This document shows, piece after piece, positions 6,462 through 30,056 of a stretch of DNA of 64,000 nucleotides; position 1 is the stretch's first letter; every line of letters begins with the position of its first letter. The translations under genes and the position numbers were made by a program. The notes below the pieces were generated by a model. It had not been told where the DNA came from, searched no databases, and worked only from the letters and a program-made list of their open reading frames with translations. This DNA comes from Chryseobacterium panacisoli. Its GTDB lineage: Bacteria > Bacteroidota > Bacteroidia > Flavobacteriales > Weeksellaceae. Where the stretch lies: positions 1 through 64,000 of the forward strand of contig NZ_VTRU01000001.1 in NCBI RefSeq assembly GCF_008274625.1, given 5' to 3'.

Positions 6462-6484
6462 ATTGCTAAATTAAGTATTTTTTT

Positions 6485-7528: not shown

Positions 7529-7644
7529 ATACTGAAATTTCTTTTGTCCAAAAATAAATAAAAAAGTAATAACTAAAATTCTTTTGATTCTTTAAAATTT
7601 CTAATCTAGCCAATGTGTTAATTGAAACTATTATGCAACATTCC

Positions 7645-8730: not shown

Positions 8731-8812
8731 CTGTCAATAAATTATTTTATTATTTGATAAATTCAAATATATAAATGTTCATACATAGTGTATTCAGTAT
8801 TTTTACGGAAAA

Positions 8813-9958: not shown

Positions 9959-10000
9959 TTCTTCAAATTTTCTATTAACAAATAGTTTGAGAACAAAGTT

Positions 10001-11203: not shown

Positions 11204-11244
11204 TGAAAAATATTATGTTTTTGAACAAGTATATTAGCTCTTAA

Positions 11245-12087: not shown

Positions 12088-12091
12088 AATT

Positions 12092-13437: not shown

Positions 13438-14061
13438 TTAAAATAATGGTATCCAGAAATGATGCATTTCAAATATACCTTTGCTTTCATCATCGTACTT
13501 ATGCGTCGATATAAATTCATGCTCGTTATCACATTTTAGTAGCAGTGAATCATCTGGGTAGAATTTTGAAATTTTGTCATTTACAAGCTTTAGCCATTCA
13601 ATAATTGACTGATTTTCTACAAACGCAATCATACCATTTTTTTTTATATCATCCCTACCATGAATTGCAACTTTATATCGCTCTATTCCCCCGGAAGTTT
13701 TATTATTAGGACCCAAGTTATCACTTATAACGTACTCCTCATCTTTCAATGTTTTATATTTCGGAAGTCTCTTAGCTTCAGCGTAAAATATCCTAGTGTA
13801 GTTATCGTCATTTAGATAAAAATATATATCTTCTCTGGCAGTACTACTAATATTTTCATGTTCTTTTTGAACTCCAATCCATTTTTTATTATCAAGTCTA
13901 CTAGTTCCAATTATATTAAAAGTATCAACTAATGTTTGAGTGTTAAGTCCTTCACGTAAACCTTTCTTTAAATGTGTTTTTTTTTCAGTGATACCTTGAC
14001 GTATTATGTATAATACGTCATTTAAATATTTATGACTAGGTGAAATAAAATCAAATTTCAT
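13438..14061 (-). CDS. Probable restriction endonuclease subunit (PD-(D/E)xK type)
   Basis: The 207-residue protein follows the methylase gene with a one-base TAATG overlap, implying translational coupling. A PD-(D/E)xK-like core is visible as EDIYFYL (D78), then IFYAEAKRL with E95 and K97 in the ExK position, followed by a conserved-looking GGIERYK segment. No other domain is evident. The pairing with an Eco57I-like N6-adenine methylase makes a restriction endonuclease the most likely role, but no named family is recognised and the target sequence cannot be predicted. Confidence 0.6.
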   Translation of the reverse strand: MKFDFISPSHKYLNDVLYIIRQGITEKKTHLKKGLREGLNTQTLVDTFNIIGTSRLDNKKWIGVQKEHENISSTAREDIYFYLNDDNYTRIFYAEAKRLPKYKTLKDEEYVISDNLGPNNKTSGGIERYKVAIHGRDDIKKNGMIAFVENQSIIEWLKLVNDKISKFYPDDSLLLKCDNEHEFISTHKYDDESKGIFEMHHFWIPLF

Positions 14062-17036
14062 TAATAACCATTTTTAAACATTTCACTTTTAACATTTTCA
14101 GCGTCTCGAAAAGCAATACTTCTCATCCAATATTTTAACTTATTAGGTTTTATAAAACTAATCTGATTATTAAATCCAAAGTAGACAATAACATTATTAA
14201 TTATTAAAGCGTTGTCCGATGAATTGTCTTGTAATATTTGATTAAATAATAAACCTGTAGCTGTAGTTAGATTATTCTGTATTGACTTATTTTTGTCTGA
14301 ATGCTCAAAAGTCACCCAAATATAAGACTCATTGATAATTTGCCTAACTGTTCTAAACATAAAGTCTTCTTGTTGGTAGGTGAAATTTAAAATTTCACAA
14401 AATATTTTTGCATAACTAGTAACTTTTTCTTGATCAATTTTACTATATATTATGCTATCAGACTTATACAATGAATCGGCTATTAATTCAGAATCTTCTA
14501 TCAATATTTTGTCGAAATCATCTAAAATTTTAAATGATTTTAAGTTATTATTTTGATCAAAAATTAAAGGTAATCTTAAAATATCTTGTCTATTAATGGA
14601 GTATGCACCACCTTGTTGTATATATGCTTTTGGTGATAGTATTTTTATTAAAAATATATATAATTCTCTGTTAGCCTTAAAAATCTGAACGAAATTTTTC
14701 ATTACATCCAAATTTTCTGATTTCAGATTCAAGACTCCATTAGGAATCATTATATCAGATGTGTTAAGTACTATCGGTAAATTTACATTTACATTTAGAC
14801 GTATAAGAATGTTGGGAGGGTAAAAACCATTTTTAGGTATTCTTACCCAATCTTCCTTGTCTACTACTGTTATTGCTTCTGCAATGCTGTCACTAGAAAA
14901 TGCTGTTGAATCTAGGTTTTTCTTTCCTGCTAGATTTACAACTTTTCCAGCGGCGCGATGTTCTGGATTGTCGATTACATCATTATCACGGGTATATCCT
15001 ATATTTGCTGTGAAATTGTGATGTTTTAAATAGTCTTCTATAGATGAATAATTGTTAAATTTTTCAACAAATGAATGAAGTCTTCCTCCTCCTAATAAAT
15101 TTAATTTCCAAATATTTTTTTTTGTAAAAATCAAACTGTACGGGATTCGAAATTTGTCGTATTTGTCAACTTGAAAGCGTATAGCACCTTTTTCGTTAGC
15201 TGACGAATTTCTTATAATTATATGTTCTACAGTTTTCTGCTTATTATGACTAGAATTATTTAATTTAACAGCTACTGTCGCAACTTTTGTTTTTCCCCAT
15301 AGATGTTCGCGTAAAGGAGTGAAGTCGTACACTCTTTCTAAGTTCCATCTGGTCATTAATGATTTTCTATATTCAAAAGATTTTGTTGTATGTAGAAATG
15401 TAGCCGCAGGCATAATCATGTAAATTATTCCTTCTGGTTTCAATAGTTTTTCTAAGCTTTTATGTAAGAAAATTATAGCAGGGTTGCTATCAGGAAAAGG
15501 TTGTTTTTTATTTTTATAGTCAATGAAAGTTTCTTTTGCAAAATCATCATCTATATTTTTTTTAACATTTTTAAGCATTTCTGACTTTGAAATGTTAAAA
15601 GGTGGATTGCCTGCAATAATATCAAATTTATTATCATTTATTTTGTACCATTTTGCAAAACCTTGATTTGTTAAATTTCCTAAAGACTCTAAACTATCAA
15701 ATGTCAAATTTTCCCAAATCTCTTTAGGCCTAATATGACTTGATAATTCGATTTGAAGTGAGGTAGCTGTAATTGATAACGCATCTTCATTAATGTCTAC
15801 ACCAAAAATACAATTTGAAAGAATGGATTTGATAGCAGTTATGTCTCTTTCACCTCGAATAGATGATTTTTTATTTTTTATCATCCACAAGGTTATTAGC
15901 CTTTTGTATGCTAAAACCAAAAAAATTCCAGAACCACATGACGGATCTAATAACTTAAATGTATTGAAGTCTAAATCTTTATCAAATGGCAATAATTCAT
16001 TAATAAGGAGTCTAGCTAAATGTGGTGGGGTATAAAATGCTCCAGTACTTTTTTGCTTGTCATCTATTGCTACAACAAATCTTTCATATAGACGGCTTAT
16101 AAATTCAATCGGTAGCAGATTAAAGTCATAATATCTCCATATAGACATTTGGCCGTTTAATTCCTTATTGCCATCTAATGCATCGGCAATAATATTAAAA
16201 TCAGCTTTTTTAAGAGTATCTAACTCCTTTTCAGAAAGATTAAAAATTCCGCCTTTAAATTTGTCATTTAGAAAATTCAGTAGTCCTATTATGTCATTAC
16301 CACGTAGAACATCACAAAAATTATTTTTCTCAACAGTGCTCTTCGTAGAACTAATAATATATGTGTCAAAGAAATTTTTTTCAAATACACTATTTCCAAA
16401 TTCGTCAAGTTGCTCCTCTAAATATTTGATTAGTATAAATTTGACAAGAATTTTTTTTAAAAGTGTTAACTCGCAGCCAATTGCTGTGTGCCTATTTAAA
16501 ATCTGCACTTCAATATGGTTTAAAAGTTTTTGATAGGGTGAAACACTTACATAATCCGCAGGAGATTCCTCTAAAATATATCCTTCAAAAATTCTTTTTT
16601 TAAGTTTATTGTCAATGTACTTTATCGTATGTGTAAGGCCGTCAAGGTAATATGGCTGTTTTTCATTAACTATTGGATTTCTAGTATCTATAATTTTGAA
16701 TCCATCAGAATAAATTATTATAGCTAAAGCTATCTCGCCCATTGTCCATAGTTGCCTATTAACTTCAACTAAATCTATTGTTTTTTTGTCTGTAGCATAT
16801 CGCTGATCGTAAATATATATAAATGGAACTGGCTTGCTTTCTACCGTATCGCTAAAACAATAGAAATAATCTGCATTGACAACTTCTGCTTGTTTTCTGT
16901 AATATTCTAAAAGGTTGTCAGTGAATAAAATACTTACAGAATATAAATTATTTTTATATTCTGTTAAGTCAAGATTATCAAATATAGAAATGTCTTTATC
17001 TATGGGCATCTGTTGTACTAAAGCGATATGATACAA
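14061..17036 (-). CDS. N6-adenine DNA methyltransferase, large (Eco57I-like)
   Basis: The 991-residue protein carries the N6-adenine methylase motifs in order: FYTPPHLARLLI (motif X region, residues 334-345), LLDPSCGSGIF (motif I, AdoMet binding, 362-372), FGVDINEDAL, and FDIIAGNPPFNIS (motif IV, catalytic NPPF at 477-480). About 330 residues precede the methylase core and about 450 follow, the latter expected to hold target recognition. Size and layout resemble type IIG or type ISP-like enzymes, but I see no clear nuclease motif in the N-terminus, and a separate nuclease-like gene is coupled downstream. Codon use is notably AT-rich, consistent with transfer. Confidence 0.85.
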   Translation of the reverse strand: MYHIALVQQMPIDKDISIFDNLDLTEYKNNLYSVSILFTDNLLEYYRKQAEVVNADYFYCFSDTVESKPVPFIYIYDQRYATDKKTIDLVEVNRQLWTMGEIALAIIIYSDGFKIIDTRNPIVNEKQPYYLDGLTHTIKYIDNKLKKRIFEGYILEESPADYVSVSPYQKLLNHIEVQILNRHTAIGCELTLLKKILVKFILIKYLEEQLDEFGNSVFEKNFFDTYIISSTKSTVEKNNFCDVLRGNDIIGLLNFLNDKFKGGIFNLSEKELDTLKKADFNIIADALDGNKELNGQMSIWRYYDFNLLPIEFISRLYERFVVAIDDKQKSTGAFYTPPHLARLLINELLPFDKDLDFNTFKLLDPSCGSGIFLVLAYKRLITLWMIKNKKSSIRGERDITAIKSILSNCIFGVDINEDALSITATSLQIELSSHIRPKEIWENLTFDSLESLGNLTNQGFAKWYKINDNKFDIIAGNPPFNISKSEMLKNVKKNIDDDFAKETFIDYKNKKQPFPDSNPAIIFLHKSLEKLLKPEGIIYMIMPAATFLHTTKSFEYRKSLMTRWNLERVYDFTPLREHLWGKTKVATVAVKLNNSSHNKQKTVEHIIIRNSSANEKGAIRFQVDKYDKFRIPYSLIFTKKNIWKLNLLGGGRLHSFVEKFNNYSSIEDYLKHHNFTANIGYTRDNDVIDNPEHRAAGKVVNLAGKKNLDSTAFSSDSIAEAITVVDKEDWVRIPKNGFYPPNILIRLNVNVNLPIVLNTSDIMIPNGVLNLKSENLDVMKNFVQIFKANRELYIFLIKILSPKAYIQQGGAYSINRQDILRLPLIFDQNNNLKSFKILDDFDKILIEDSELIADSLYKSDSIIYSKIDQEKVTSYAKIFCEILNFTYQQEDFMFRTVRQIINESYIWVTFEHSDKNKSIQNNLTTATGLLFNQILQDNSSDNALIINNVIVYFGFNNQISFIKPNKLKYWMRSIAFRDAENVKSEMFKNGY

Positions 17037-17062
17037 ATTTAATCAAATATCTCAATAATTCG

Positions 17063-17079
17063 AACACTATTCTCGTGTT
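17063..17079. promoter_or_regulatory. Operator-like inverted repeat upstream of the methylase
   Basis: AACAC-N7-GTGTT (within GAACAC...GTGTTC) lies 27 bp upstream of the methylase start at 17036. The same half-sites occur at 17469-17484 upstream of the XRE gene, so it is a candidate binding site for that regulator. Confidence 0.45.
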
Positions 17080-17105
17080 CTGTTTGATAAATTGAAAAGT
17101 AAAAT

Positions 17106-17135
17106 AAAATCCTAATTCTTTTGAATTAGGATTTT
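17106..17135 (-). terminator. Hairpin overlapping the XRE gene's 3' end
   Basis: AAAATCCTAATTC and GAATTAGGATTTT form a long A/T-flanked stem with a short loop. The XRE stop codon lies in the stem. The A/T flanks allow termination on either strand; on the minus strand it would separate the XRE gene from the methylase promoter. Confidence 0.65.
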
Positions 17136-17434
17136 CTTCTATTATGATTTTTAAATTCTTTTTGTAACTCTATAATTTCAATTTGAAGTTTTTCATATTC
17201 AATGTCAGTCAACTTAGTAAATAAAATCAAGATGTCAATTTTGAAGTAATTACAAAATTTGACGATACTTTCTATTGTTGGATTAGTTTCTGCTCTTTCA
17301 ATTCTACCAACTTGATTACTTGAAAGATTAATCTCATTGCCAAGTTGTAATTGCGAAAGTTTACCCTTCAATCTATGAAATTGAAATATTTTTCCAATTT
17401 GAAATTTTAATTCGTCTACTTCCCATATATACAT
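17126..17434 (-). CDS. XRE-family HTH regulator, probable controller of the restriction-modification genes
   Basis: The 102-residue protein has a central XRE helix-turn-helix: IFQFHRLKGKLSQLQLGNEI, LSSNQVGRIERAETNPTIES and IVKFCNYFKIDI, followed by a short coiled tail (EKLQIEIIELQKEFKNH). Small XRE proteins upstream of methylase genes are usually controller proteins that delay restriction until DNA is methylated. Two AACAC/GTGTT inverted repeats, one 35 bp upstream of this gene and one upstream of the methylase, fit that role. The methylase begins 90 bp after this gene's stop and is separated by a hairpin. Confidence 0.8.
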   Translation of the reverse strand: MYIWEVDELKFQIGKIFQFHRLKGKLSQLQLGNEINLSSNQVGRIERAETNPTIESIVKFCNYFKIDILILFTKLTDIEYEKLQIEIIELQKEFKNHNRRKS

Positions 17435-17676: not shown

Positions 17677-18077
17677 CCCCTAATACGGATAATGTAGAGT
17701 CCCATGCCGTTTTTTTTCAATGCAGTTCGCTTTATCTCTACCTAATAAATCTAAGCCCGCTTCCTAAAAATAGTATCAGACACGATACAATAGGAGGGTA
17801 CAACCTATTGCGGCTTTAAAAAGCTTACACGGGAACACAGATTTCATTCATATTAAATTCTTTCCGGTGCCTTGCGGTCACTGCTTACAGAACCTCACCA
17901 GTCCTTTTTCATACCAAAGGGCATCAGGAAAGTCTTTATCTAAAAAATGAATCAAAAAACTACTCAACTTAAAATCAGAAGAAAGAAAAAAGCCCCTTCC
18001 CATGCAGTTTGGAGACCAACGGGAAAGAGCGTAGTTCAGTAATTAATCTTTAAAAATTAAAAAACCTTTACAAATCT

Positions 18078-21068
18078 ATGAAAAATTCCTATTACCATAT
18101 AGGAGGCATTTTCTTTGGGCTCATGTTTACCGCTGTAAGCATTGGTACAAAAGCACAAACAGGCACCATTTCCGGTACCGTAACCTCATTCGACAAACCT
18201 TTACAGGGAGTCATCATCTCCCAAGAGGGCAGTGACCAGGTAACCATGACCGGCAACAACGGAACCTATACCTTACAGGTTTCAGAAGAAAATCCCATCC
18301 TATTGTTCAGACACACTGATTATACAGAAAAGAAATTCACAGTCACTAATCAGACCGTCGTTAATATTAGCTTAGAACAAAAAGTAAAGGGAATCGAAGA
18401 AGTTATTCTCAACGCTGGCTACTACAAGGTTAAAGACAAAGAAAGAACCGGTAGTATCGCCAAAGTTTCAGCAAAAGATATAGAAAACCAGCCTGTCACC
18501 AATGTTTTATCAACCGTGCAGGGAAGAATGGCAGGAGTCAGTATCACCCAGAATTCAGGAGTTCCGGGAGGCGGCTACAGCATCCAGATCCGAGGGCGTA
18601 ACAGTCTGAGAACTTATGCCAACAGTGAAATTGATGGAAGCCAGCCCTTATATATAGTGGATGGTGTACCAGCGGGAAGCGGAATGACTGCTACTTATGG
18701 TGCCAATATCTTGTCAGATGCCAACCTAAATCCTTTAAGCAATATCAGCCCCAATGATATCGAAAGCATTGAAGTATTAAAAGATGCAGATGCCACCGCT
18801 ATTTATGGTTCAAGAGGAGCTAACGGAGTTGTACTGGTAACGACTAAACGGGCTAGGAAAGGAACTTTAGGACTTTCTATCAATACATCCTATGCTTTAA
18901 GCAACAGCCTTTCCAATCTTACCATGATGAATACGGAGCAATATCTGGGAATGCGAAGACAGGCTTATGCGAATGATGGAATTACCGTATATCCGGCCAC
19001 TGCGTATGATATCAACGGAACATGGGACCAAGGCCGTTATACGGATTGGTTCAAAACACTTCTCGGTAATACATCGGTTAGCTCCAATGTCCAGCTGTCT
19101 TTATCGGGAGGCGGGGAGAAGACCTCTTTTCTGGTAAGTTACGGACACAATGAGCAGACTACGGTCTTTGCCAAAGATTTCCGGTATAAAACCAATACCT
19201 TACTGGGTAACCTGTCACACCGCTCAGCAGACAACCGTCTGAACTTTACCATGTCAACACTCTTTTCAAAGCTGGAACATAATGTAATCAGTCTTGACAA
19301 TACCAGCAGCGCTTTGTTTCTGGCTCCCAATGCTCCCGCTCTGTACGATTCAGGAGGAAATATCAACTGGCAGAACAATACTTTTGATAATCCTTTGGCT
19401 GCCTATAACAGTACCTATTCCAACAACAATATTCAGTTCATGAATAATTTCACGGCGGGTTACGAATTGTTGAAAAATGTACAGATCAGACTCAATGGAG
19501 GAATCAGTTATCAGACCTTTGATGAACTTTCCTTACAGCCCAGTACGATCTATAATCCGTCATTAGGGATAGGTCCTGCCAATTCCAGGGCGCTACAAAG
19601 CAATAAAAGCAGGCTGTCCTATACTTTGGAACCACAATTGAACTGGAGCTTTAAAAAAGGTAGTCATCAGGTGGATGTCCTGGCAGGAGGTACCTATCAG
19701 AGCGATCTGAATACTCAGGCTGCCATACAGGGATATGGTTTTACCAGTAATGCATTTATTGAAAATATTTCCGCAGCTACTACCAAGCTGATTTCGGACC
19801 AGATCAAAACAGAATATAAGTATACAGCCGTCTTCGGAAGACTTAATTATCAGTTTGACCATCGCTATATCATTAATATTACGGGCAGAAGAGACGGAAG
19901 CAGCCGTTTGGGAACCAACCGTAAGTTTGCGAACTTCGGTGCGGTGGGAGCGGCCTGGCTGTTCTCCAACGAAAGCTTTATGAAAGAACTGTCCTGGCTC
20001 TCCTTTGGAAAGCTGAGAGGAAGTTATGGCTCATCCGGAACTGATAATATTGGGAACTACCAGTATAACGATACGTTTATCACTTCTACCTTAGGATATA
20101 ATAATGTAACAGGACTGGTTCCTTCCAAACTGTTCAATCCTAATTTCAGCTGGGAGAAAACCATAAAATTAGAAGCCGCACTGGAAATGGGATTCTTTAA
20201 GGATAGATTTCATGTTACGGCATCCCATTACCGCAACCGTTCATCGAATCAACTGGTAGGCTATCAGCTTCCATCAGTAACAGGGTTTACTTCAGTGCTG
20301 GCCAATCTGGATGCCACCATTCAAAATACGGGTTGGGAATTTGAGATCGTAGGGCGTCCGTTTAACGGAGCTTTTAAATGGGAAACATCAGCCAATGTAA
20401 GCTTTCCGAAGAATAAACTTCTGTCTTTCCCAGGACTGGAAGGATCAACCTATGCCAACTCTTACGCAATAGGGCAATCCGTTAATATTATAAAATTGTA
20501 TCATCTGGAAGGTATCAATCCTCAGAACGGTCAGTATATCTTTACGGATTACAATGGTGACGGCAGGATCAGTTCCCCTGATGATAGGCAGATTATTAAA
20601 AATATAGGCGTAGAGTTTTTCGGGGGCTGGAGCAATAATTTCAGCTATAAAAACTGGTCATTGTCAATGCTTGTTCAGTTTGTCAAACAGCAAAGCCGCA
20701 ATTTTAATTACCAGATGTCTTCCCCCGGACTGATGCGGAATCTTCCGGTAGAGGCCCTTAATGTGTGGTCACCGGATAATCCGAATGGACTGTATATGCC
20801 GTATCACGCTGCCGCATCACCACTGCATAGTTTATTTCAGATGAGTGATGCGACGGTGTCCGATGGATCGTTCATCCGGTTGAAAAATATTCAGCTTAGC
20901 TATCGGATTCCTCTGCAGGGGAAGCTCATCAGAGAAGCCAAGATCTATTTTCAGGGTCAGAATCTCTATACCTGGACCAAGTATTTCGGGCTGGATCCGG
21001 AGTTTTCATCTTTAGGATTTCTGCCGCCTCTAAAAACGTATTCTTTCGGCATGCAGATTAACTTTTAA
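18078..21068 (+). CDS. SusC/RagA-family TonB-linked outer-membrane transporter
   Basis: This 996-residue TonB-dependent transporter has a signal peptide, an N-terminal carboxypeptidase-regulatory-like domain (GTISGTVTSFDKPLQGVIIS), a plug domain (VLSTVQGRMAGVSI, IQIRGRNSLR, YIVDGVPAG, ESIEVLKDADATAIYGSRG, NGVVLVTTK) and a beta-barrel ending in an aromatic residue (SFGMQINF). SusC proteins import ligands captured by the SusD lid lipoprotein. susD follows after 10 bp. With a peptidase and no glycosidase in the operon, a peptide or protein-derived ligand is more likely than a glycan (inference). The region looks more GC-rich than the AT-rich defence genes to its left. Confidence 0.93.
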   Translation: MKNSYYHIGGIFFGLMFTAVSIGTKAQTGTISGTVTSFDKPLQGVIISQEGSDQVTMTGNNGTYTLQVSEENPILLFRHTDYTEKKFTVTNQTVVNISLEQKVKGIEEVILNAGYYKVKDKERTGSIAKVSAKDIENQPVTNVLSTVQGRMAGVSITQNSGVPGGGYSIQIRGRNSLRTYANSEIDGSQPLYIVDGVPAGSGMTATYGANILSDANLNPLSNISPNDIESIEVLKDADATAIYGSRGANGVVLVTTKRARKGTLGLSINTSYALSNSLSNLTMMNTEQYLGMRRQAYANDGITVYPATAYDINGTWDQGRYTDWFKTLLGNTSVSSNVQLSLSGGGEKTSFLVSYGHNEQTTVFAKDFRYKTNTLLGNLSHRSADNRLNFTMSTLFSKLEHNVISLDNTSSALFLAPNAPALYDSGGNINWQNNTFDNPLAAYNSTYSNNNIQFMNNFTAGYELLKNVQIRLNGGISYQTFDELSLQPSTIYNPSLGIGPANSRALQSNKSRLSYTLEPQLNWSFKKGSHQVDVLAGGTYQSDLNTQAAIQGYGFTSNAFIENISAATTKLISDQIKTEYKYTAVFGRLNYQFDHRYIINITGRRDGSSRLGTNRKFANFGAVGAAWLFSNESFMKELSWLSFGKLRGSYGSSGTDNIGNYQYNDTFITSTLGYNNVTGLVPSKLFNPNFSWEKTIKLEAALEMGFFKDRFHVTASHYRNRSSNQLVGYQLPSVTGFTSVLANLDATIQNTGWEFEIVGRPFNGAFKWETSANVSFPKNKLLSFPGLEGSTYANSYAIGQSVNIIKLYHLEGINPQNGQYIFTDYNGDGRISSPDDRQIIKNIGVEFFGGWSNNFSYKNWSLSMLVQFVKQQSRNFNYQMSSPGLMRNLPVEALNVWSPDNPNGLYMPYHAAASPLHSLFQMSDATVSDGSFIRLKNIQLSYRIPLQGKLIREAKIYFQGQNLYTWTKYFGLDPEFSSLGFLPPLKTYSFGMQINF

Positions 21069-21078
21069 AACCAGTACA

Positions 21079-22452
21079 ATGAAACTTTATAAACAATTCT
21101 ATATCATAACAGGATTTTTAATACTAAACAATATGAGTTCCTGTGAAAAACTGATCGAAGTAGAACTGCCTTCCAATCAGATTGCTTCAGATCAGGTATT
21201 TGTAGATGTACAGACGGCAGATGCTGCTCTGGCTGGATTATATTCAGGACTGCGCGACAACTCGCCGTTTGCAGGAGATCAATCGGGCAGACTGTTAGGG
21301 CTTTACACCGATGACCTGGATTTTTATTCCACTACGGCAACCAATGGACTACCGGAGATATCCCAAAACCTTCAGAACGATTCCAATGCCAGTATTTATA
21401 CAGACTGGTCAACTTCATATAAGCAGATCTATGTGGCCAATGCCATACTGGAAGGCATTGAAAAGTCAAAGTCCATTTCCCAGGCAGACCGCAACCGAAT
21501 CAAAGGAGAGGCATTAATGGTCAGATCCATGCTGCTGTTATACCTTCAGCAGGTATATGGAGATATTCCTTATCCGACAACGACCGATTATCAGGTTAAC
21601 CAGACAATTTCAAAAACTGATAAGGCACAGGTACTTAAACAGCTGAGTGAAGATCTTAAAGAATCCATCAGCCTGCTTCAGGACAGCTACAGAAATACGG
21701 AGAGGATTTTCCCTAACCGTAAAATGGCGGAACTGCTATTGGCTAAAGTCTATCTGCTAGAGGGAAGATGGGTAGAGGCTGAGCTTCTGTTAAAGGGCAT
21801 TATTCAAAGTCCTATGTACCAGTTTCAGAATGATATTACCAAGGTCTTTATCAAATCCGGCACGCATATTCTCTGGCAGCTGAAACCTAAAAATTCCGGT
21901 GACGGCACCAAAGAGTCCGGAATCTATTATTTTAACAACTCAGCACCTTCGATGACGGCTCTCAGTACTGGCCTTGTCAATGCATTTTATCCCGCAGATC
22001 TCAGAAAACAATACTGGATGGCACCGGTAACATTTAACGGAACAACCTGGTACAGAGCTGAGAAATATAAAAACAGGACAGCCAATACAACGGAGTATTC
22101 AATTATTGCCCGGCTGGAAGAAGTCTATCTTCTTTTAGCCGAGACTTTGGTACAGCAAAATAAAATAGATGAAGCCCTTTTTTACCTCAATAAAACCAGA
22201 CAGAGGGCAGGAATGGCACCATTAGCTTTGCCTTCATCAAAAGAAGAAGCACTCAGTGAGATCACACGGGAAAACCGACGAGAGTTTTTTACAGAAATGG
22301 GACATCGTTTCTTCGATTTGAAAAGAGTCGGAAAGCTGGATACATCTATACAGGGAAAGCCTAACTGGAAGTTTTTTCATAAACTATGGCCAATTCCCCA
22401 GCAGGATATTTTGTTAAATCCCAATTTAAAACCTCAAAATGAAGGCTATTAA
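21079..22452 (+). CDS. SusD/RagB-family surface lipoprotein
   Basis: The 457-residue partner of the SusC transporter has a lipoprotein signal ending at a cysteine (NNMSSCEK, about residue 22), an N-terminal SusD-like domain (AALAGLYSGLRD...LYTDDLDFYS) and a C-terminal RagB/SusD domain (RLEEVYLLLAETLVQ, ALFYLNKTRQRAGM, REFFTEMGHRFFDLKRVGKL). SusD proteins are helical TPR-like lids that hand ligand to the transporter. The last 14 bases overlap the S9 peptidase start, which indicates translational coupling. Confidence 0.92.
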   Translation: MKLYKQFYIITGFLILNNMSSCEKLIEVELPSNQIASDQVFVDVQTADAALAGLYSGLRDNSPFAGDQSGRLLGLYTDDLDFYSTTATNGLPEISQNLQNDSNASIYTDWSTSYKQIYVANAILEGIEKSKSISQADRNRIKGEALMVRSMLLLYLQQVYGDIPYPTTTDYQVNQTISKTDKAQVLKQLSEDLKESISLLQDSYRNTERIFPNRKMAELLLAKVYLLEGRWVEAELLLKGIIQSPMYQFQNDITKVFIKSGTHILWQLKPKNSGDGTKESGIYYFNNSAPSMTALSTGLVNAFYPADLRKQYWMAPVTFNGTTWYRAEKYKNRTANTTEYSIIARLEEVYLLLAETLVQQNKIDEALFYLNKTRQRAGMAPLALPSSKEEALSEITRENRREFFTEMGHRFFDLKRVGKLDTSIQGKPNWKFFHKLWPIPQQDILLNPNLKPQNEGY

Positions 22453-24931
22453 AATCAAAGCGCTATTATGCATAATGATTATCTGTATGTGCAGCCAAGG
22501 ATTGTTGGGACAATATAATATTGATTCTATACAACAGAGATATGCTGCATTCTATACTATTGCTCATTTAAAAGTATCAGATGATAACCGATGGGTTTCT
22601 TTTTCTAAGATTTACAAGAAAAATGCAGATACCACCATTATTGCCACTACTGACAAACAGCAATCTGTCAAAGCTGTTTTGACTGGTGTTTCTGAAAGCT
22701 ACTTTTTGAAGGATAATCATTTTTTCTGGCTGGGTAGTGGCAAGGCACAACTTATCAATCTTCGAAACGGAGATAAGAAAGATTTTAAGGAAGTCAGCAA
22801 AATAGAAATACTGCCCGCTCTGGGATATTATGCTGTTTGGTACAAAAACCGTTTTCTGGAAGTATTTGACAGCAAAAACAAACTTGTTGCCTCAGTTTCT
22901 GATGTGACACAGTTGGTCAGTAATAAACAGGATAAATTATATGTAATGGTTAATCGAAACAATCTCTCATCGGTTTGGTCTTTGCAATCCAAAGAATTTA
23001 ATAAAGTCTATACCTCTGAACAGAATATAAAAAAAATCATGCTCGCACCCTCACAGAAATATCTTGCAGTTACAGAGCAGGAGAAATCTTCTGATGGATT
23101 ACAGCTTGTATTACTCGATACCAAATCACTCAAAGTTTCAAGAGTTGGCAATGGTTTTATTAAGTCTGATTATATTGAGGTGCGTGAGATCAAAAACGGA
23201 CTTGCTTTTTTTCTGGATTTTAATAGCCGGCCAAAACCTGCTCCTACCGCCCAGCCGGAAGTAAAATATGGTACCGATCCCGATTTATGGCTTTATAGAA
23301 TGGGAGAGCAGTATCATGAGTACTGGGTGTATGATATAAAGTCAGAGCAGTCTCAAAAGGTAGATACTGGTTTTGCGTTTATGGCTGCTATGGATCATGA
23401 ACGATATTTTCTGAGCTTTGACCGAAAGGAAAGGAATGCCTACGTCAGTTCTGTTTCTTGGTTTGACATTTATTTGTATGACCGCCATAGTAAAACTTCA
23501 AAAAAGATACTCTCTCAGATCTCCAACCTTGTAGTTAGCCGACAGGGTAAATATATAGTAGGATTCAGTGAAGAAGAAAAGCGATGGATTCTGTATAATA
23601 CTTTATTATCCGGAAAAATGACGATTGAAAACCCTCATATTGGGAGGCCAACTTTTAGTGATGACAATCATTATGTTTTTTTTGAGAGCGAGAATGGAAT
23701 ATACAGGTTTAATGTACGGACGAAAAATTTGGAAGAACTGCCCTTAACAGCGAATAAAAAAGTTACTATTCTCAATGTTAAAGAAGATGTGATCTACGGA
23801 ACGTTAGGCGCAGACTTTAGAATCCGCAGTATTAATGCCAAGAAGCCTATTATCCTTGAGCAGTATGATCAAAACAACAATGAAACATCATATGTTCAAT
23901 GGTTTCATGATAAAATCAAGGTGCTTCTTCCGGCCACTAAAAACAAGGTAAGTGATTTCAAAATAAATCTCCTGAGCCAGGCGGTTTTCAGTCTGGAAGA
24001 GAATTTTAACAGCCCTCAGACAATTTATCAATATCATAGCGGTCATAAGAAAGAAGTGTATCAAAGCAATAGGCATGATCATGAGATCACTACGGCCAGG
24101 CAGGAAATACTTTCATACAAGAATAGTTTGGGAGTACAAATCAAAGGTGTATTGTATTATCCCCTTAACTTTGATGTCCGAAAGAGATATCCCTTGATTT
24201 TGTCGATCTATGAAGTTCAGAATAAAAGGGCATCGGTATATCCCTATCCTTATTTTTCGGGGATAGGGATTAATATCCGGTCACTCATTGATAATGGCTA
24301 TTTTGTTTTTCTTCCCGATGTGGTTTTGGATAGCCGGGGACCTGGGTTTGCTGCGTTGGATTGTGTGCACTCAGGACTGGATGCCCTAAAAGGATATGCC
24401 AATATTGACAGCAATAGAGTAGGACTCATGGGGCATTCATTTGGCGGGTTCGGAACCAGTTTTATAGCGACCCGTTCCCATCGTTTTGCGGCCTATATAT
24501 CCGGAGCAGCCGTTACCGACCTTGTTAAATTTTATTTTTCCTTCAGTCAGGAAAGAAATCTTCCCAATTATCCGCGCTTTGAAAACGGACAGTTTGATAT
24601 GAAGGTGCCGTTTTCTAAGAATAAAATGCTTTACTATGATAACAGCCCTATTGCCAATGTAGAGAAAGTTAATAAGCCGATCCTTCTCTGGACAGGACTG
24701 AAAGACGGAAACGTTCCTTATACTCATACCGAAGAATTGTATACGGGTTTGCTGCGGAATCAAAAAAAGGCGGTAGTACTGTATTATAAAAATCAGGATC
24801 ATGACCTGGCAAAAAACAGTGCTGAGAGCATAGATCTGCATTTGAGAATCCTGGAATGGTGGGATTACTTTCTGAAAGATAAAAAAGATATTCCCTGGAT
24901 TGATAAAGAAATGAAAAAGGATGCCCTGTAA
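22439..24931 (+). CDS. S9-family (prolyl oligopeptidase-like) exported peptidase
   Basis: The 830-residue protein has a hydrophobic N-terminus (ALLCIMIICMCSQGLLGQ) consistent with export, a long beta-propeller region, and a C-terminal alpha/beta hydrolase domain. The nucleophile motif is GHSFGGFG (Ser about 667), with Asp in GLKDGNVPY (about 754) and His in NQDHDLAK (about 786). S9 enzymes hydrolyse short peptides. It overlaps susD by 14 bp and ends in a terminator, closing the three-gene operon. Such peptidases recur next to SusCD pairs in Bacteroidota that are not polysaccharide loci. Confidence 0.88.
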   Translation: MKAIKIKALLCIMIICMCSQGLLGQYNIDSIQQRYAAFYTIAHLKVSDDNRWVSFSKIYKKNADTTIIATTDKQQSVKAVLTGVSESYFLKDNHFFWLGSGKAQLINLRNGDKKDFKEVSKIEILPALGYYAVWYKNRFLEVFDSKNKLVASVSDVTQLVSNKQDKLYVMVNRNNLSSVWSLQSKEFNKVYTSEQNIKKIMLAPSQKYLAVTEQEKSSDGLQLVLLDTKSLKVSRVGNGFIKSDYIEVREIKNGLAFFLDFNSRPKPAPTAQPEVKYGTDPDLWLYRMGEQYHEYWVYDIKSEQSQKVDTGFAFMAAMDHERYFLSFDRKERNAYVSSVSWFDIYLYDRHSKTSKKILSQISNLVVSRQGKYIVGFSEEEKRWILYNTLLSGKMTIENPHIGRPTFSDDNHYVFFESENGIYRFNVRTKNLEELPLTANKKVTILNVKEDVIYGTLGADFRIRSINAKKPIILEQYDQNNNETSYVQWFHDKIKVLLPATKNKVSDFKINLLSQAVFSLEENFNSPQTIYQYHSGHKKEVYQSNRHDHEITTARQEILSYKNSLGVQIKGVLYYPLNFDVRKRYPLILSIYEVQNKRASVYPYPYFSGIGINIRSLIDNGYFVFLPDVVLDSRGPGFAALDCVHSGLDALKGYANIDSNRVGLMGHSFGGFGTSFIATRSHRFAAYISGAAVTDLVKFYFSFSQERNLPNYPRFENGQFDMKVPFSKNKMLYYDNSPIANVEKVNKPILLWTGLKDGNVPYTHTEELYTGLLRNQKKAVVLYYKNQDHDLAKNSAESIDLHLRILEWWDYFLKDKKDIPWIDKEMKKDAL

Positions 24932-24939
24932 GGCATCCT
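24918..24939. terminator. Terminator at the convergent S9 peptidase/DUF6520 ends
   Basis: AGGATGCC and GGCATCCT form an 8-bp stem around the S9 peptidase stop codon, followed by TCTTCTTTT on the plus strand and preceded by an A-run that would serve the minus strand. It separates the two converging operons. Confidence 0.75.
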
Positions 24940-24945
24940 CTTCTT

Positions 24946-25215
24946 TTACTGTGGAATTTCTCTGAGAACATTATCGCAGAAGGTTTCCGAGACCTGTTCT
25001 TTCAGCTGGGTGCCGTCTGACAGTTCACAGATCGGTCCTGTCGGAATGTCACTACAGTTTTTACCTGCTTGCTCACAAGTGAAATTTCCATTACCATCCG
25101 GAACCATTACGTATCCCGGTACAATAGCTTTGTTTGTCTGATTTGCCATCTTAGTGGCAAATGCTGTTCCTGTTCCTAGTACCACTAGTAAAGCAGGGAA
25201 AAGGATTTTTTTCAT
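24946..25215 (-). CDS. Small exported four-cysteine protein (DUF6520-like)
   Basis: The 89-residue precursor has a clear signal peptide (MKKILFPALLVVLGTGTAFA, cleavage near residue 20). The mature part of about 69 residues has four cysteines: FTCEQAGKNCSD, GPICELSDG and ETFCDN. It resembles the DUF6520/NVEALA-like small secreted proteins of Bacteroidota, whose function is unknown. Even cysteine number and export suggest two disulfides. It is the last gene of a four-gene operon, 12 bp after the MauE-type gene, whose family is linked to disulfide chemistry. Confidence 0.6.
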   Translation of the reverse strand: MKKILFPALLVVLGTGTAFATKMANQTNKAIVPGYVMVPDGNGNFTCEQAGKNCSDIPTGPICELSDGTQLKEQVSETFCDNVLREIPQ

Positions 25216-25227
25216 AAAATGAAATAT

Positions 25228-26748
25228 TTAGTGCTGCCTACTCTGTTGATCGGTTTTCGGCTTCCCCGATTTAATATATTGAGATAATGCTTTTGTCATT
25301 TTATATTGGGTGAGTTCATTATTATGGATGGTATACAGATATTTTTCGGTTACAATGATATCATTGAGTGTATGATCATCTTTCTTGAAAATATAGACGC
25401 TGCCTACATAACTTTGGGAATCAATGTCGTAGACATCCAATACATCTGATTTTTTCCAGGCTTTTCTCGATTCGTGTCTGCCCATCAGGCTGGATTGGAC
25501 GAAAAGTAAATTTTTGTACACCACGGATCTGATATTGACCTTTAGTGCCGGTGCTTTCATCTTGTAAGTGCCGTCAGAAAGCTTCGTAGTTTTAATCTGG
25601 ACAGTTTTTACGGTATCAATGGTTTTTACAAACTGTTGCACCTGCATACTGCTGTTCATGACAATTGTCTGATTTCTGTAAGTATAGGTATATAACAGTT
25701 TTTTCGTATGCGATTCGTAGGCCATGCTTCCGTCGACGTCGAACAGACCATCGGTCTGTTTCTTTAAAACAGTTGTTTTTAATTGTAATTTCTCAGGACT
25801 GTCAATATCAAGTAGTCCCAGAACCAGATGATTGCTTGGACGTATCTGTGTCCTAATGGCAAAACGGGAAGAGTCAATGACCTTGAGATCATTAAAATAC
25901 GCGTCTTTGTAACTTATTCTTGTAGTAGATTCGGTCCCAAGTTTACCTTTAAATAAGATAGGTACCGACCCGTCATAAATATAGAAATGATTGTCCGATA
26001 CTATTTGCCTGATATTTTTATAAGGATGATCTGTTTCTATTCGGGCAGAGGTAACCGCTGTTCGATGCATTGACGAGTCGATTGTGAGGAGCTGCTGCGG
26101 ATATTTCTGGTTAGACAGATAAATGTTATGATCATCAAACCCAGCAAAATAATAGAAACCATTGTCCAAATGTACTGATTGATGTCGGATGACAGGGTGC
26201 TTGATAAACCGCCTTGTAAAATTATTTTCTTTTTTAATGACATGCTCCGAGGAAAGAAACATACCTATTATCAAAATAATGCTCAGTACGATTGATGTTG
26301 ATACCGTTATAGCAGTTTTTGATTTCCGGACAGGAATATTCTTTTCTATTAAGAATAAGGCAATAATTATAAGTAATACACATATTGCATTAAAAACTAA
26401 ATGTTCAGTCCAGCCCAGTTTTTCGAGAATTCCTCCACAGGAACAGGGAACAAAGTCACTATAGTTGAGAATGATGAAAATATAGGCTGTAAATGCTGAC
26501 ATTAAAAAAAGTGAGAGGTATAAGCCAGATCGTCTGCAGATGGGAACCAACAATAAGATGAAAGCAATCCATTCTATTATAATGACGCTGTAAGAAACAA
26601 AACCTGCATAAGCGCTGAGAAGTGGTGATTGTGCTAATTGAATCTGAAATCTTTCAAATTCAAAAAGTTTACTTACACTCGCGTACACAAATAATACAAT
26701 AAAAAAGTAACTTACAATAGTAGGGAATATGTTGGAAAAATTTTTCAT
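25228..26748 (-). CDS. MauE/DoxX-like membrane protein with extracytoplasmic propeller-like domain
   Basis: The first 160 of 506 residues are a four-span MauE-like domain with the Bacteroidota hallmark FVPCSCGGILEKLGWTEH (C102, C104), in which a CxC pair sits near the membrane surface. The remaining 330 residues resemble a beta-propeller-like repeat protein (FDDHNIYLSN, HFYIYDGSVPILFKG, LLDIDSPEKL, YTIHNNELTQYK). MauE proteins support disulfide formation in exported partners. The gene lies between two small cysteine-containing protein genes (55 aa at 26767-26934 and DUF6520 at 24946), so maturation of these is a reasonable inference. Confidence 0.75.
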   Translation of the reverse strand: MKNFSNIFPTIVSYFFIVLFVYASVSKLFEFERFQIQLAQSPLLSAYAGFVSYSVIIIEWIAFILLLVPICRRSGLYLSLFLMSAFTAYIFIILNYSDFVPCSCGGILEKLGWTEHLVFNAICVLLIIIALFLIEKNIPVRKSKTAITVSTSIVLSIILIIGMFLSSEHVIKKENNFTRRFIKHPVIRHQSVHLDNGFYYFAGFDDHNIYLSNQKYPQQLLTIDSSMHRTAVTSARIETDHPYKNIRQIVSDNHFYIYDGSVPILFKGKLGTESTTRISYKDAYFNDLKVIDSSRFAIRTQIRPSNHLVLGLLDIDSPEKLQLKTTVLKKQTDGLFDVDGSMAYESHTKKLLYTYTYRNQTIVMNSSMQVQQFVKTIDTVKTVQIKTTKLSDGTYKMKAPALKVNIRSVVYKNLLFVQSSLMGRHESRKAWKKSDVLDVYDIDSQSYVGSVYIFKKDDHTLNDIIVTEKYLYTIHNNELTQYKMTKALSQYIKSGKPKTDQQSRQH

Positions 26749-26766
26749 GCTTTGTTGTTATTATGT

Positions 26767-26934
26767 TTAACAGATTTGAACCAGTCTCCATTTAATCTTC
26801 CATCCGCAATATTCAGGCATCGGTTCACCCTTAAAGAGGGTCACAGTTGTTTTGAAATTCCCCATACTTTCCCAGATGCCACTCTTTGGACATGGTAAGC
26901 CTGTAACAACTGATATGGAGATATGGGGAATCAT
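26767..26934 (-). CDS. Small protein with CPxSGxW motif, 55 aa
   Basis: The ATG at 26934 opens a 55-codon frame, 12 bp after the lipoprotein gene and 18 bp before the MauE-type gene. The product contains GLPCPKSGIWE, a central TLFKGEPMPEY, and ends CGWKIKWRLVQIC. The CP-x-SG-x-W start and G-x-xMP...W end are spaced as in small domains I have seen attached to type VI/polymorphic-toxin immunity proteins; that resemblance is from memory. It has three cysteines and no signal peptide. Tight spacing on both sides supports a real gene. Confidence 0.55.
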   Translation of the reverse strand: MIPHISISVVTGLPCPKSGIWESMGNFKTTVTLFKGEPMPEYCGWKIKWRLVQIC

Positions 26935-26946
26935 ATTTTTTTGTTT

Positions 26947-27183
26947 TTAATCCTGAGTAAGCCGCCAATTATCACCGTCTCTGACAGGAGGATCTTTTGT
27001 TCCAGGATCTTCAATGATTTCTATGGATTTAGCAGAATCCTGTTTCATTACTAAACCATTTATTGTGGGCTCTGATTTTTCAATATATTCACTATCTGAA
27101 ATCATATCTTCATCTCGATGGGTGCAGTTTTGTAGACAAACTGCTGCGATGATTATGCTAAAAAATGGGATAAACTTTTTCAT
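26947..27183 (-). CDS. Small lipoprotein, 78 aa
   Basis: A lipoprotein signal (FFSIIIAAVCLQNC, Cys about residue 19) is followed by an acidic, disordered-looking mature region ending DPPVRDGDNWRLTQD. Short lipoproteins with a DPPV-x-DG-x-xWR ending recur beside SusCD/MauE clusters in Chryseobacterium-type genomes (recollection, not checked). It is the first gene of the four-gene operon running to 24946 and is divergent from the AraC-type regulator. No function is known. Confidence 0.6.
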   Translation of the reverse strand: MKKFIPFFSIIIAAVCLQNCTHRDEDMISDSEYIEKSEPTINGLVMKQDSAKSIEIIEDPGTKDPPVRDGDNWRLTQD

Positions 27184-27282
27184 TTTGATAATTTTAATTG
27201 GGTTATCCCGGCCGGATTATATTAGAATTCTGATGTCAAAATTATCCGGCTTATGAGCTAAAAAAAACTGTTATATGGCTCT

Positions 27283-27314
27283 ATTTTAAAATTGTTACGT
27301 CTCAATTTTAAAAT
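27283..27314. promoter_or_regulatory. Perfect 12-bp inverted repeat in the divergent promoter region
   Basis: ATTTTAAAATTG and CAATTTTAAAAT are perfectly complementary arms separated by eight bases. The site lies 100 bp upstream of the lipoprotein operon and about 147 bp upstream of the AraC-type regulator. It could be an operator for that regulator or a terminator-like structure; no T-run follows. Confidence 0.45.
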
Positions 27315-27399
27315 TAATACATAAGAACATCAGAGTTTAAGTGGCTGTATTTGCATGTTTTACAGGATTTTTATGTTTCTATTATTTAATTCATTGAAA

Positions 27400-27433
27400 T
27401 TTGATTTATTTAAAACATAAATGTTTATTTTTG
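27400..27433 (+). promoter_or_regulatory. Promoter of the TPR/AraC regulator gene
   Basis: TTTG at 27400-27403 and TATTTTTG (TAnnTTTG) at 27426-27433 are separated by 22 bp, inside the 17-23 bp range used in flavobacterial promoters. The start codon is 27 bp after the -7 box. Confidence 0.55.
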
Positions 27434-27460
27434 AGATGGTGAGGTTCTAAATATCAGTCT

Positions 27461-29164
27461 ATGAAAAAGTTTTATTGCTTTCTCATCTTATTTCCTGTTT
27501 TTTCACAATTTTTATTTTCACAAAAGAAAGAAGAAAAAACTTTCAGTGAAATTAGAAAGCCTTATGAAAAAATGGCAATAGATGACATTCATGCAATGCC
27601 TTATGTAAAACTGTACATTGAGAAAGCAAAAAACGAAAATAATTTTTCAAAGCTGATTCAAGGGTATAGAGATGCAAGACAGTTTGATTATAAAAACAAG
27701 ATGAAGTATGCTGACAGCGCACTTACTGTCAGTTTGCAGCATGGAAGCCAAGATGACATCAGTAAAGAATATTTAAGCAAGGGAATCATCTATTATTTTT
27801 ATCAAAAAAAAATTAAGCTGGCTTTAAATGAATACATTAAAGCCTATACGCATTCAAAAGGCTCAAAAGATGAGTACCATAGGTATAAAGTCCTTTATCA
27901 TTTAGGAATTGTAAAAAGTCATTTGGGCTATTATGATGATGCCATGAAGCATTTTCTTGAATGTATTTCATTTTATAGGTCAAAGCTGAATGAAAACCAT
28001 CATGAAAATGAACAGTTTAACTATGAGAAGGCGTATCTCAACTGCTTACATCAATTGACTGTACTTAACAGATATCTGCATCATTTTGCCAAGAGTGATA
28101 GTTTAAGCAATTTAGGTTATCGGCTAACTGCCAATAATAGTGATTTTGTACTTGAAAAAAGCTATTTCCTAAAATGCATCGGAATTTCCAGATTTCATCA
28201 TAAAGATTATGTTGGTGCTCAGGATCACTTACAAAAATCTTTACCCAATATTCTAAAGAGAAACGATTTCGCCTGGGCTTCTGTAGTATATTATTATTTG
28301 GGTAAAACGTATGAAGCGCAGGATAGTATAAATAGGGCTGTAGGATGTTATAACAAAATAGACTCTATTTTCAATAGACATGATTTTATACTTCCAGAGG
28401 TCTATAAGAGTTATCACTATCTTATCGATCATTATAAAGATAAGGATGTCAAAAAACAGCTTTATTATACCAATCAGCTTTTAAAATCTGACAGTTTAAT
28501 TAGTAAAGATTTTCCCTATTTATCTTTGAAACTTCATAAAGATTTTGACCGGCGTACACTGATGGATGCAAAAGAAGAAATCGAGAGATCCAGTAGTAAA
28601 AAAATAGTATTGGCTCAGATACTGATTGTTTCAGGAAGTGTAGTTCTTGGTTTTTTTGTTGTCCGGTATCGAAGAGATCAAAAGATAAAAAAACAATATC
28701 AGCTTCTCCAAAAGAGAATTGCTGAAGGAAAATATAATATGAATGATATTTTAAGAGAAGAAATGATACAACTGCCTGTAAGAAAGACTTCTCTTACCCC
28801 GGAAATAGCCTTAGAAATAAAAGAAAAACTTCAGAAGTTTGAGCAGGAGCAACATTTCAAAAAGAAAGGAATTACGCAGAAAAGTATTGCTTTAAAGCTG
28901 GGAACCAATTCCCACTATCTTTCGGTTTACATCAATGAACAAAAAGGGATGAATTTTAATAAATACATGGCTGAACTGAGAATTAATTATATCACTAACC
29001 TACTTAATACCAACAGTAAATATTTAAATTATACCATCGAGGCTCTGGCTGACGAATGCGGTATAGCGGCACGCCAGAACTTTTCAAATCTGTTCTTTGA
29101 TATCAATGGGATCAGACCTACCGATTATATAAAGAATCGGAAAAAGGAGCTGGGTATTAGTTGA
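27461..29164 (+). CDS. Membrane-anchored TPR sensor with C-terminal AraC-type HTH
   Basis: The 567-residue protein has a signal peptide (CFLILFPVFSQFLFS), about 350 residues of periplasmic TPR-like helices (for example YLSKGIIYYFYQKKIKLALNE and HLGIVKSHLGYYDDAMKHF), one membrane span at about 383-403 (IVLAQILIVSGSVVLGFF), and a cytoplasmic AraC-type DNA-binding domain (ITQKSIALKLGTNSHYLSVY, IEALADECGIAARQNFSNLF). This architecture is a one-component transmembrane regulator common in Flavobacteriia. It diverges from the lipoprotein operon across an inverted repeat, so control of the secreted-peptide and SusCD operons is likely. Confidence 0.85.
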   Translation: MKKFYCFLILFPVFSQFLFSQKKEEKTFSEIRKPYEKMAIDDIHAMPYVKLYIEKAKNENNFSKLIQGYRDARQFDYKNKMKYADSALTVSLQHGSQDDISKEYLSKGIIYYFYQKKIKLALNEYIKAYTHSKGSKDEYHRYKVLYHLGIVKSHLGYYDDAMKHFLECISFYRSKLNENHHENEQFNYEKAYLNCLHQLTVLNRYLHHFAKSDSLSNLGYRLTANNSDFVLEKSYFLKCIGISRFHHKDYVGAQDHLQKSLPNILKRNDFAWASVVYYYLGKTYEAQDSINRAVGCYNKIDSIFNRHDFILPEVYKSYHYLIDHYKDKDVKKQLYYTNQLLKSDSLISKDFPYLSLKLHKDFDRRTLMDAKEEIERSSSKKIVLAQILIVSGSVVLGFFVVRYRRDQKIKKQYQLLQKRIAEGKYNMNDILREEMIQLPVRKTSLTPEIALEIKEKLQKFEQEQHFKKKGITQKSIALKLGTNSHYLSVYINEQKGMNFNKYMAELRINYITNLLNTNSKYLNYTIEALADECGIAARQNFSNLFFDINGIRPTDYIKNRKKELGIS

Positions 29165-29210: not shown

Positions 29211-30056
29211 ATGGTAACAAAAACTATTTTTAAAAGAACTTCAAAGTTATTGGAGGATCTGGACCTAAAGATTAACGAAGTCAATGCTGACGGAAATAAT
29301 CTGATCAAAATTTCAGAAAAGGCATTACTTATTATTGATGAGTCGATAAGGAAATTAAAACTTCTAGTTTCCAACCACCATTTTGATCATATTGCTGAAG
29401 AAGTATTATTTTTTAAAAAACTGAAACCGCAGTTTATTGCAAAATTTATTTATTATTCTGCAGTACTGGATATTGAATCTCATAAACCGGCTGCCGGAAA
29501 TAAGGCATTGAAAAAATATTATGAGGCAGAGCAGGAGAAGTTAAAAAGCTTTTATGTAGAGCATTCTGAATTTTACAGTTATTATAAACGGGAAGCGACC
29601 TATCTTGATCATAAAATATTTGTTCGCAATTCCTACGACCTAAAAATGAAGTTATCATCCGGATTTTATAATTATGATCCAAGTTTTACAACTTCCCACG
29701 ATCATATGATCGCCAGATTTATTTCCAATGAGCAATTCGATCAGTATTTAAAGATGCAAATCGAAAATTCAAATGATAACTTTACCACAAAAGTATTTTC
29801 TCCTTTGAGCTGGTCGGGATCAAAGGTCGGACTTATAGAGCTTATCTATGCGCTCTACCAGATGCGTTGTTTTAACGGCGGTAATATAGAGTTAAGCGAA
29901 GTCATAAAATTTACAGAAAAGTCATTGGATTGTGATTTAGGTAACTTTCATAAAACCATCTTTGAAATCCGTAACCGAAAACAGGGGCCAACCAAATTCC
30001 TTCAATTGGTGAGTGACAATTTGAATCAATATTTTATGAACAGTGATGCTGAGTAA
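29211..30056 (+). CDS. rteC: RteC-domain regulator of element excision/transfer
   Basis: The 281 residues match the RteC family: the N-terminal KLLEDLDLKINEV, the central LKPQFIAKFIYYSAVLDIE, YLDHKIFVRNSYDLKMKLSSG, and the C-terminal SPLSWSGSKVGLIELIYALYQ and ISEVIKFTEKS-like block with FHKTIFEIRNRKQ. In CTnDOT, RteC activates the excision operon; here it starts 47 bp after the AraC-type regulator and is followed by a terminator. No RteA/RteB two-component pair is present in the window, so input control differs from CTnDOT. Confidence 0.85.
   Translation: MVTKTIFKRTSKLLEDLDLKINEVNADGNNLIKISEKALLIIDESIRKLKLLVSNHHFDHIAEEVLFFKKLKPQFIAKFIYYSAVLDIESHKPAAGNKALKKYYEAEQEKLKSFYVEHSEFYSYYKREATYLDHKIFVRNSYDLKMKLSSGFYNYDPSFTTSHDHMIARFISNEQFDQYLKMQIENSNDNFTTKVFSPLSWSGSKVGLIELIYALYQMRCFNGGNIELSEVIKFTEKSLDCDLGNFHKTIFEIRNRKQGPTKFLQLVSDNLNQYFMNSDAE

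Follow-up and report, generated by a model that had tools for sequence, protein, structure and literature searches.

Few proteins of Bacteroidota are as abundant as the SusCD transporters, and almost all of those studied import nutrients. In agr or pyoverdine loci, the genes for maturation, ligand and receptor diverge and are swapped together, and the flanking regulator stays conserved. MauE has been speculated to form disulfides in methylamine dehydrogenase, and its homologues are encoded beside cysteine-rich precursors in candidate RiPP clusters of Streptomyces (PMC7794033). RteC controls the excision and transfer of CTnDOT (PMC1976400). In the window, i.e., the whole 64,000-nucleotide stretch of Chryseobacterium panacisoli DNA analyzed here (NZ_VTRU01000001.1), relatives of SusCD, MauE and RteC are brought together in a single locus. 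We found that this locus consists of two modules: RteC, an AraC-type regulator, a small lipoprotein and the short protein p55 travel with an ICE, and MauE, DUF6520, an S9 peptidase, SusD and SusC evolve separately and have been repeatedly exchanged.

The initial annotation described a susC-susD-S9 operon (18078–24931, plus strand) that converges on a lipoprotein-p55-MauE-DUF6520 operon (27183–24946, minus strand), and this layout was confirmed gene by gene. The susC/ragA gene (18078–21068, plus strand) encodes a TonB-linked outer-membrane protein of 996 aa (TIGR04056, 678.6 bits at a cut-off of 368). It is followed in tandem by susD/ragB (21079–22452, plus strand) for a lid lipoprotein of 457 aa, in which both SusD family domains, PF14322 and PF07980, score over their cut-offs, and the pair thus has the composition of a SusC/SusD importer. 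The third gene (22439–24931, plus strand) encodes an exported protein of 830 aa which is identified as an S9 peptidase by its PF00326 domain (Peptidase_S9, 84.3 bits) together with the catalytic triad Ser667/Asp756/His788, conserved in 120/120, 117/120 and 119/120 homologues, respectively. As had been noted earlier, there is no glycosidase: none of the scanned proteins from 17.1 to 30.1 kb belongs to such a family.

The opposite operon starts with the gene of a 78 aa lipoprotein (26947–27183, minus strand) with an LQNC lipobox and the C-terminal motif DPPVRDGxxWR. It is followed by p55 (26767–26934, minus strand), a protein of 55 aa without a signal peptide and with the pattern CPxSGxWxxxGxxxTT....MPxYCGxKxxWxL. 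Neither of them has a Pfam match, and we consider both to be real genes because they are conserved, with clear motifs, in 62 (p55) and 40 (lipoprotein) loci. The next gene (25228–26748, minus strand) encodes a 506 aa protein with a MauE-type membrane domain (PF07291, 101.9 bits, cut-off 27), so its assignment to the MauE family holds, with the addition that a beta-propeller is fused behind the membrane domain. The last gene (24946–25215, minus strand) encodes the DUF6520 protein, an 89 aa exported four-cysteine mini-protein (PF20130, 28.9 bits, cut-off 25.4). The regulator gene (27461–29164, plus strand) had been described as diverging from DUF6520; in fact it diverges from the lipoprotein gene. 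Its product of 567 aa combines a signal peptide, a periplasmic TPR part, a transmembrane segment at residues 380–403 and an AraC-type HTH domain (TPR and HTH_18 matches, hydropathy). Next to it lies the gene of RteC, a homologue of the ICE excision/transfer regulator (29211–30056, plus strand; PF09357, 209.4 bits), which was found at usable length in 68 loci.

Besides RteC, the window contains a relaxase, a T4SS-DNA_transf coupling protein, MobC_2, P-loop_TraG, CtnDOT_TraJ and TraM, the set of a CTnDOT-like ICE; RteA and RteB were not found among the proteins scanned. The view that the cassette is ICE cargo is therefore correct for the window genes, but many relatives of the cassette occupy loci without RteC, which adjoins the cassette in about half of the loci. 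No plasmid-borne copies were found when they were looked for. It should be mentioned that the region to the left of the cassette (5844–12643 and 13438–17434) is a putative defence or restriction island with genes for a NADAR protein, two PRTase-CE proteins, a PLD/NgoFVII-type nuclease, an Eco57I-type methylase and an XRE regulator, and that the conjugation region holds a YhcG/DUF1016 PDDEXK nuclease gene (36335–37309). The gene of a large serine recombinase of 531 aa (48069–49698) ends inside or beside tRNA-Arg(cct), which may mark the boundary of an integrated mobile element.

To describe the distribution of the cassette, loci were collected from the MauE protein in 246 genomes of the family, 117 of which were positive, and in contigs of named species. 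After the removal of duplicates 138 independent loci remained, the window being excluded. The complete convergent order (MauE and DUF6520 facing S9, susD and susC) is kept in 115 of them, so the arrangement is far from chance; SusCD faces MauE in 125 loci, and in 132 a small ORF follows the MauE gene at a distance of not more than 130 nt. These loci come from five families of Bacteroidota: Weeksellaceae, Flavobacteriaceae, Sphingobacteriaceae, Chitinophagaceae and Prolixibacteraceae. The survey of co-location proposed in the initial annotation thus supports their being a single unit: both operons are linked in 125/138 loci. They were not found to be generally unlinked in related genomes, and several of the unlinked cases are contig ends, insertions or split forms.

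The remaining 23 loci without the full order comprise about ten that are split-MauE or fragment forms, as well as several others at contig ends or with insertions. A recognisable S9 gene is missing from about ten loci with a split MauE, and thioredoxin-like proteins are encoded near some of them. In the distant Flavobacteriaceae loci L184, L188 and L190 two adjoining genes encode the MauE domain and the propeller separately, and in L184 and L190 redoxin/thioredoxin-like proteins occupy the usual place of S9. Cassettes lacking SusCD were considered as possible "producer only" variants, and this idea was weakened on inspection: in L067 a transposase-like ORF directly follows DUF6520 and S9 is located about 21 kb away, and further examples are contig ends or fragments.

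A reverse search with the DUF6520 profile was positive in 99 of the 246 family genomes, all 99 of which also encode the MauE protein, and in 30 of 30 loci retrieved with this profile MauE lies within 1.5 kb of DUF6520. By inspection, S9 homologues at E<1e-60 occur only in genomes that also contain MauE. Taken together, the forward and reverse co-occurrence counts indicate that the gene set of the cassette is close to obligate.

DUF6520 had been described as a small exported protein with four cysteines, and its sequence agrees with this. The window protein has a signal peptide at about residues 1–20 with an AFA|T site. Among 136 homologues, 121 have an AxA motif at the signal and 123 have exactly four cysteines. 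In an alignment of 38 sequences the sole invariant residues are Ala18 and these cysteines. The prediction of export, which could have failed here, is thus supported by the signal peptide; the locus encodes no route that would take DUF6520 across the outer membrane. The mature part was modelled as a beta mini-protein with pLDDT >90 over most of residues 31–89. Searches of the PDB with the model gave no match, either by Foldseek (E<=0.001) or by VIA (Z>=2), which is no proof of a new fold. Four genomes (G132, G068, G127 and G037) have a second copy of DUF6520 in tandem, a few hundred bases away. NVEALA was rejected as a sister system: its Pfam model matches in only 2 of 198 genomes of the phylum, and below the cut-off.

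The MauE membrane domain covers residues 6–132 and the propeller approximately residues 178–490 of the protein, whose model has a pLDDT of 87.8. An alignment of the membrane domain revealed the invariant stretch PCSCGG..EK.GWTEH, and the placement of basic residues suggests a periplasmic orientation for both the PCSCGG loop and the propeller. By analogy with the mau literature (PMC7794033), a MauE-type membrane protein beside the cysteine-rich exported DUF6520 would fit a disulfide link. The window proteins scanned around the cassette include no methylamine dehydrogenase and no other mau proteins, so the mau maturation system as such was not recognised.

To compare the histories of the genes, pairwise distances were computed over 45 loci having eight genes. 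The distances correlate at 0.80–0.89 within module A (RteC, AraC, p55) and at 0.75–0.92 within module B (MauE, DUF6520, S9, susD, susC), and between the modules only at 0.28–0.57. DUF6520 thus coevolves with SusCD, S9 and MauE, and it is exchanged together with them. At the same time, linked genes share their history without any contact between the products, so the correlations within module B alone are no proof of a ligand relation.

The exchanged module of 8.2 kb (18540–26760) was delimited by the drop of identity at its edges and by the AU test; it comprises susC from about codon 155, susD, S9, DUF6520 and MauE. In comparison with loci L038, L039 and L121, identity falls from 95–98% to 64% at the left breakpoint (about 18.54 kb, within susC) and from 91–99% to 66–71% at the right one (about 26.76 kb, between p55 and the MauE start). 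The susC gene is thus itself split, codons 1 to about 155 belonging to the ICE-bound module and the remainder to the exchanged one. At least three types of module B are found on backbones whose RteC and AraC share at least 95% and 92% identity, respectively, with those of the window: type 1 (the window, L032, L033 and L206), type 2 (L038, L039, L042, L202, L203, L205 and L207) and type 3 (L204). Identity of type 2 to the window is 49–50% for MauE, 46–48% for DUF6520, 33–35% for S9, 59–60% for SusD and 68–69% for SusC. The pattern recurs on another backbone (L208 and L209), and genome G242 contains types 1 and 2 on two near-identical elements (L033 and L039).

The phylogenies give the same picture. 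The tree of RteC and AraC unites 12 backbones with a support of 99, and the module-B tree rejects this single clade (AU test, p = 1.4e-61). On the module-A tree, no fewer than 11 changes are required to account for the module-B types that have two or more members, of which there are at least seven. The exchange of a matched set as a block between near-identical elements points to an undescribed type-specific exchange system. The best evidence that the mini-protein, importer, peptidase and propeller are functionally matched is that they are exchanged as a set and the sensor is not. Within module B, variation is greatest in the hypervariable N-terminal propeller of S9, with a median identity of 18%, followed by mature DUF6520 at 27% and the propeller of MauE at 38%; the membrane part of MauE (59%) and the catalytic domain of S9 (44%) vary less. 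The greatest diversity is therefore concentrated in those parts that could touch a ligand.

What the importer takes up is less readily read from its sequence. The nearest solved SusC is 8aa4 (306.9 bits), RagA (6sli) scores 214.1 bits and the entry 5t3r 212.1 bits; because 8aa4 outscores the peptide importer RagA, the "peptide-type importer" of the initial annotation is not established by sequence, which cannot tell the ligand. The S9 fold normally admits only short peptides. A lasso-peptide isopeptidase of the Atxe2 family was considered for the S9 protein and rejected, since NF033523 gives 62.4 bits at a cut-off of 400.

We prefer the reading that DUF6520 is a self-made, type-specific mini-protein recognised or handled by the cognate SusCD/S9, and we give it slightly less than an even chance. 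The mini-protein would be exported by Sec; the MauE domain, with its periplasmic PCSCGG loop, would oxidise or hold it, and the propeller would recognise it. The mini-protein or its fragments would then be the type-specific ligand of the lineage's own SusCD pair, and S9 would process the material arriving in the periplasm. The AraC sensor may turn the cassette on in response to a cue independent of the type, and in the chromosomal versions an extended SusC, FecR and an ECF sigma factor would fill the control role, like classical ligand-triggered surface signalling. The complete cycle would be an undescribed system widespread in Bacteroidota: every lineage would produce a disulfide-bonded mini-protein of its own, release it and retake it via the matching SusCD and peptidase, as a currency private to that lineage, and the type would be switched by an 8-kb block swap between mobile elements. 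This full version is possible but rather doubtful.

Besides the conserved gene order, the co-occurrence, the block exchange and the pattern of variation described above, a self-made ligand is favored by the position of MauE homologues beside cysteine-rich precursors in Streptomyces (PMC7794033) and by 27 loci where the cassette is accompanied by an ECF sigma factor and a FecR anti-sigma factor, and where SusC carries an additional N-terminal segment. This segment is taken for a signalling (STN-like) domain, with no Pfam call. Such an arrangement reports ligand binding at the cell surface in FecIRA-type systems. Counted against it are the lack of an encoded outer-membrane export route for DUF6520, the nearest solved SusC, which is not the peptide importer RagA, the short-peptide limit of the S9 fold and the split-MauE loci without a recognisable S9.

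The main alternative is ordinary uptake. SusCD-S9 would import and digest an outside peptide or glycopeptide, DUF6520 and the MauE-propeller protein would be periplasmic accessory or assembly factors of the complex and DUF6520 no transported ligand, and the types would follow the substrates. Loci for nutrient uptake commonly combine SusCD with a peptidase, the solved SusC entries closest to the window protein transport nutrients, and horizontal exchange is also seen for the rag alleles of the peptide importer RagAB (PMC11817032). However, DUF6520 sits in the opposite operon with MauE, its variability is about that of a ligand, it matches no known accessory fold, and the single S9 is the sole degradative enzyme present. 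We regard ordinary uptake as unlikely, yet as a serious alternative.

An improbable alternative is competition, in which a bacteriocin-like mini-protein toxin would enter rivals via their SusCD, and the cognate importer, S9 or the propeller would protect the producer. The repeated swapping of matched blocks between mobile elements and the presence of two types in G242 do resemble a toxin-immunity polymorphism, but we found neither a dedicated immunity gene nor a secretion apparatus, and the cassette also occurs at RteC-less loci under ECF/FecR control. Moreover, the importer is encoded by the producer, whereas classic bacteriocins use a nutrient receptor of the target.

The regulator bears on a further reading, namely that DUF6520 is a pheromone sensed by the AraC protein through its periplasmic TPR, and that this protein would act on RteC and ICE transfer. 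The proximity of RteC, which governs CTnDOT excision and transfer (PMC1976400), and a 12-bp element common to both operons, kept in 15 loci with similar AraC proteins, are consistent with it. The element, AGAACCTCACCA, is located at 17889–17900 (plus strand, position -189 of susC) and at 27437–27448, between araC and the lipoprotein gene, 12 bp before araC and on the minus strand, to which the lipoprotein operon belongs. Among 54 ICE-type loci examined, 15 have it at both places with not more than one mismatch, all with a window-like AraC, and it is missing from both places in nearly all the rest. By length alone the shared 12-mer of a single locus is not significant against shuffles, and we treat it as a lead only because its place is conserved in 15 loci; it is a candidate operator joining both operons. 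However, the TPR part is 97% identical between types 1 and 2, whose mature DUF6520 proteins share only 38%, and a sensor of a type-specific pheromone is expected to diversify with the peptide. AraC homologues elsewhere accompany RND pumps, and chromosomal cassettes lack RteC. The sensor is thus no type-specific peptide receptor, given its conservation and its homologues at 43–45% identity beside RND pumps. Signalling through it, as suggested in the initial annotation, is disfavored, and pheromone control of conjugation has a low probability. These homologues, TPR/TM/AraC regulators adjoining an RND efflux pump, were found in L255–L259, with a weakly similar small lipoprotein in L258 and L259. 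In L147 and L149 (Bacteroidia) AraC is replaced by a NusG-like antiterminator and a Crp-like regulator that precede the cassette. Finally, export rather than import of the mini-protein by SusC, as by Oar for PopC in Myxococcus, is very improbable: a TonB-dependent transporter is needed for PopC secretion (PMC6434023) and no other export route is encoded here, but import is what a SusD lid and an S9 peptidase normally go with.

The library searched held no paper describing the assembled cassette, its block exchange or the role of DUF6520; the combination of SusC, SusD and MauE gave nothing relevant, and searches by family name (DUF6520, NVEALA, DUF4221) found no papers. We conclude that the assembled cassette and its block exchange are probably new, and that the families of its parts and SusCD allele exchange, in RagAB, are known (PMC11817032). 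DUF6520, a Pfam family without a described function, gains a defined genetic context and testable partners. A conserved, block-exchanged SusCD locus with an exported cysteine-rich mini-protein would add a self-made ligand to the nutrient-import picture, and types that differ on nearly the same element offer a natural experiment for what the importer recognises.

Among described systems, the peptide-importing RagAB of Porphyromonas gingivalis shares with the cassette a SusC/SusD pair without a glycosidase and several exchangeable alleles with corresponding barrel and lid (PMC11817032). However, no MauE-propeller, DUF6520 or S9 partner is reported for RagAB, and the window SusC is nearer to 8aa4 than to RagA. 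The MauE/MauD system of methylamine utilisation resembles it in the MauE domain over the Pfam cut-off and the cysteine-rich exported partner, but here MauE is fused to a beta-propeller and no methylamine dehydrogenase gene occurs among the scanned proteins. The Streptomyces MauE candidate RiPP clusters likewise have a MauE homologue beside a small cysteine-rich precursor, but they are Gram-positive, their precursors have at least eight cysteines, and SusCD and S9 are absent (PMC7794033). The best fold match of the propeller half is the DUF4221 propeller 3s9j from Bacteroides vulgatus (Z 19.6, rmsd 3.7 over 292 residues), which differs in being a stand-alone protein with 10% identity. CTnDOT-type ICEs (RteABC) have RteC, TraG, TraJ, TraM, relaxase and MobC in common with the element described here, in which, unlike in them, a TPR-AraC protein adjoins RteC. 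Lastly, the block exchange of agr and pyoverdine loci resembles the swap of the cassette, although the proteins differ and the role of ligand is here a putative one.
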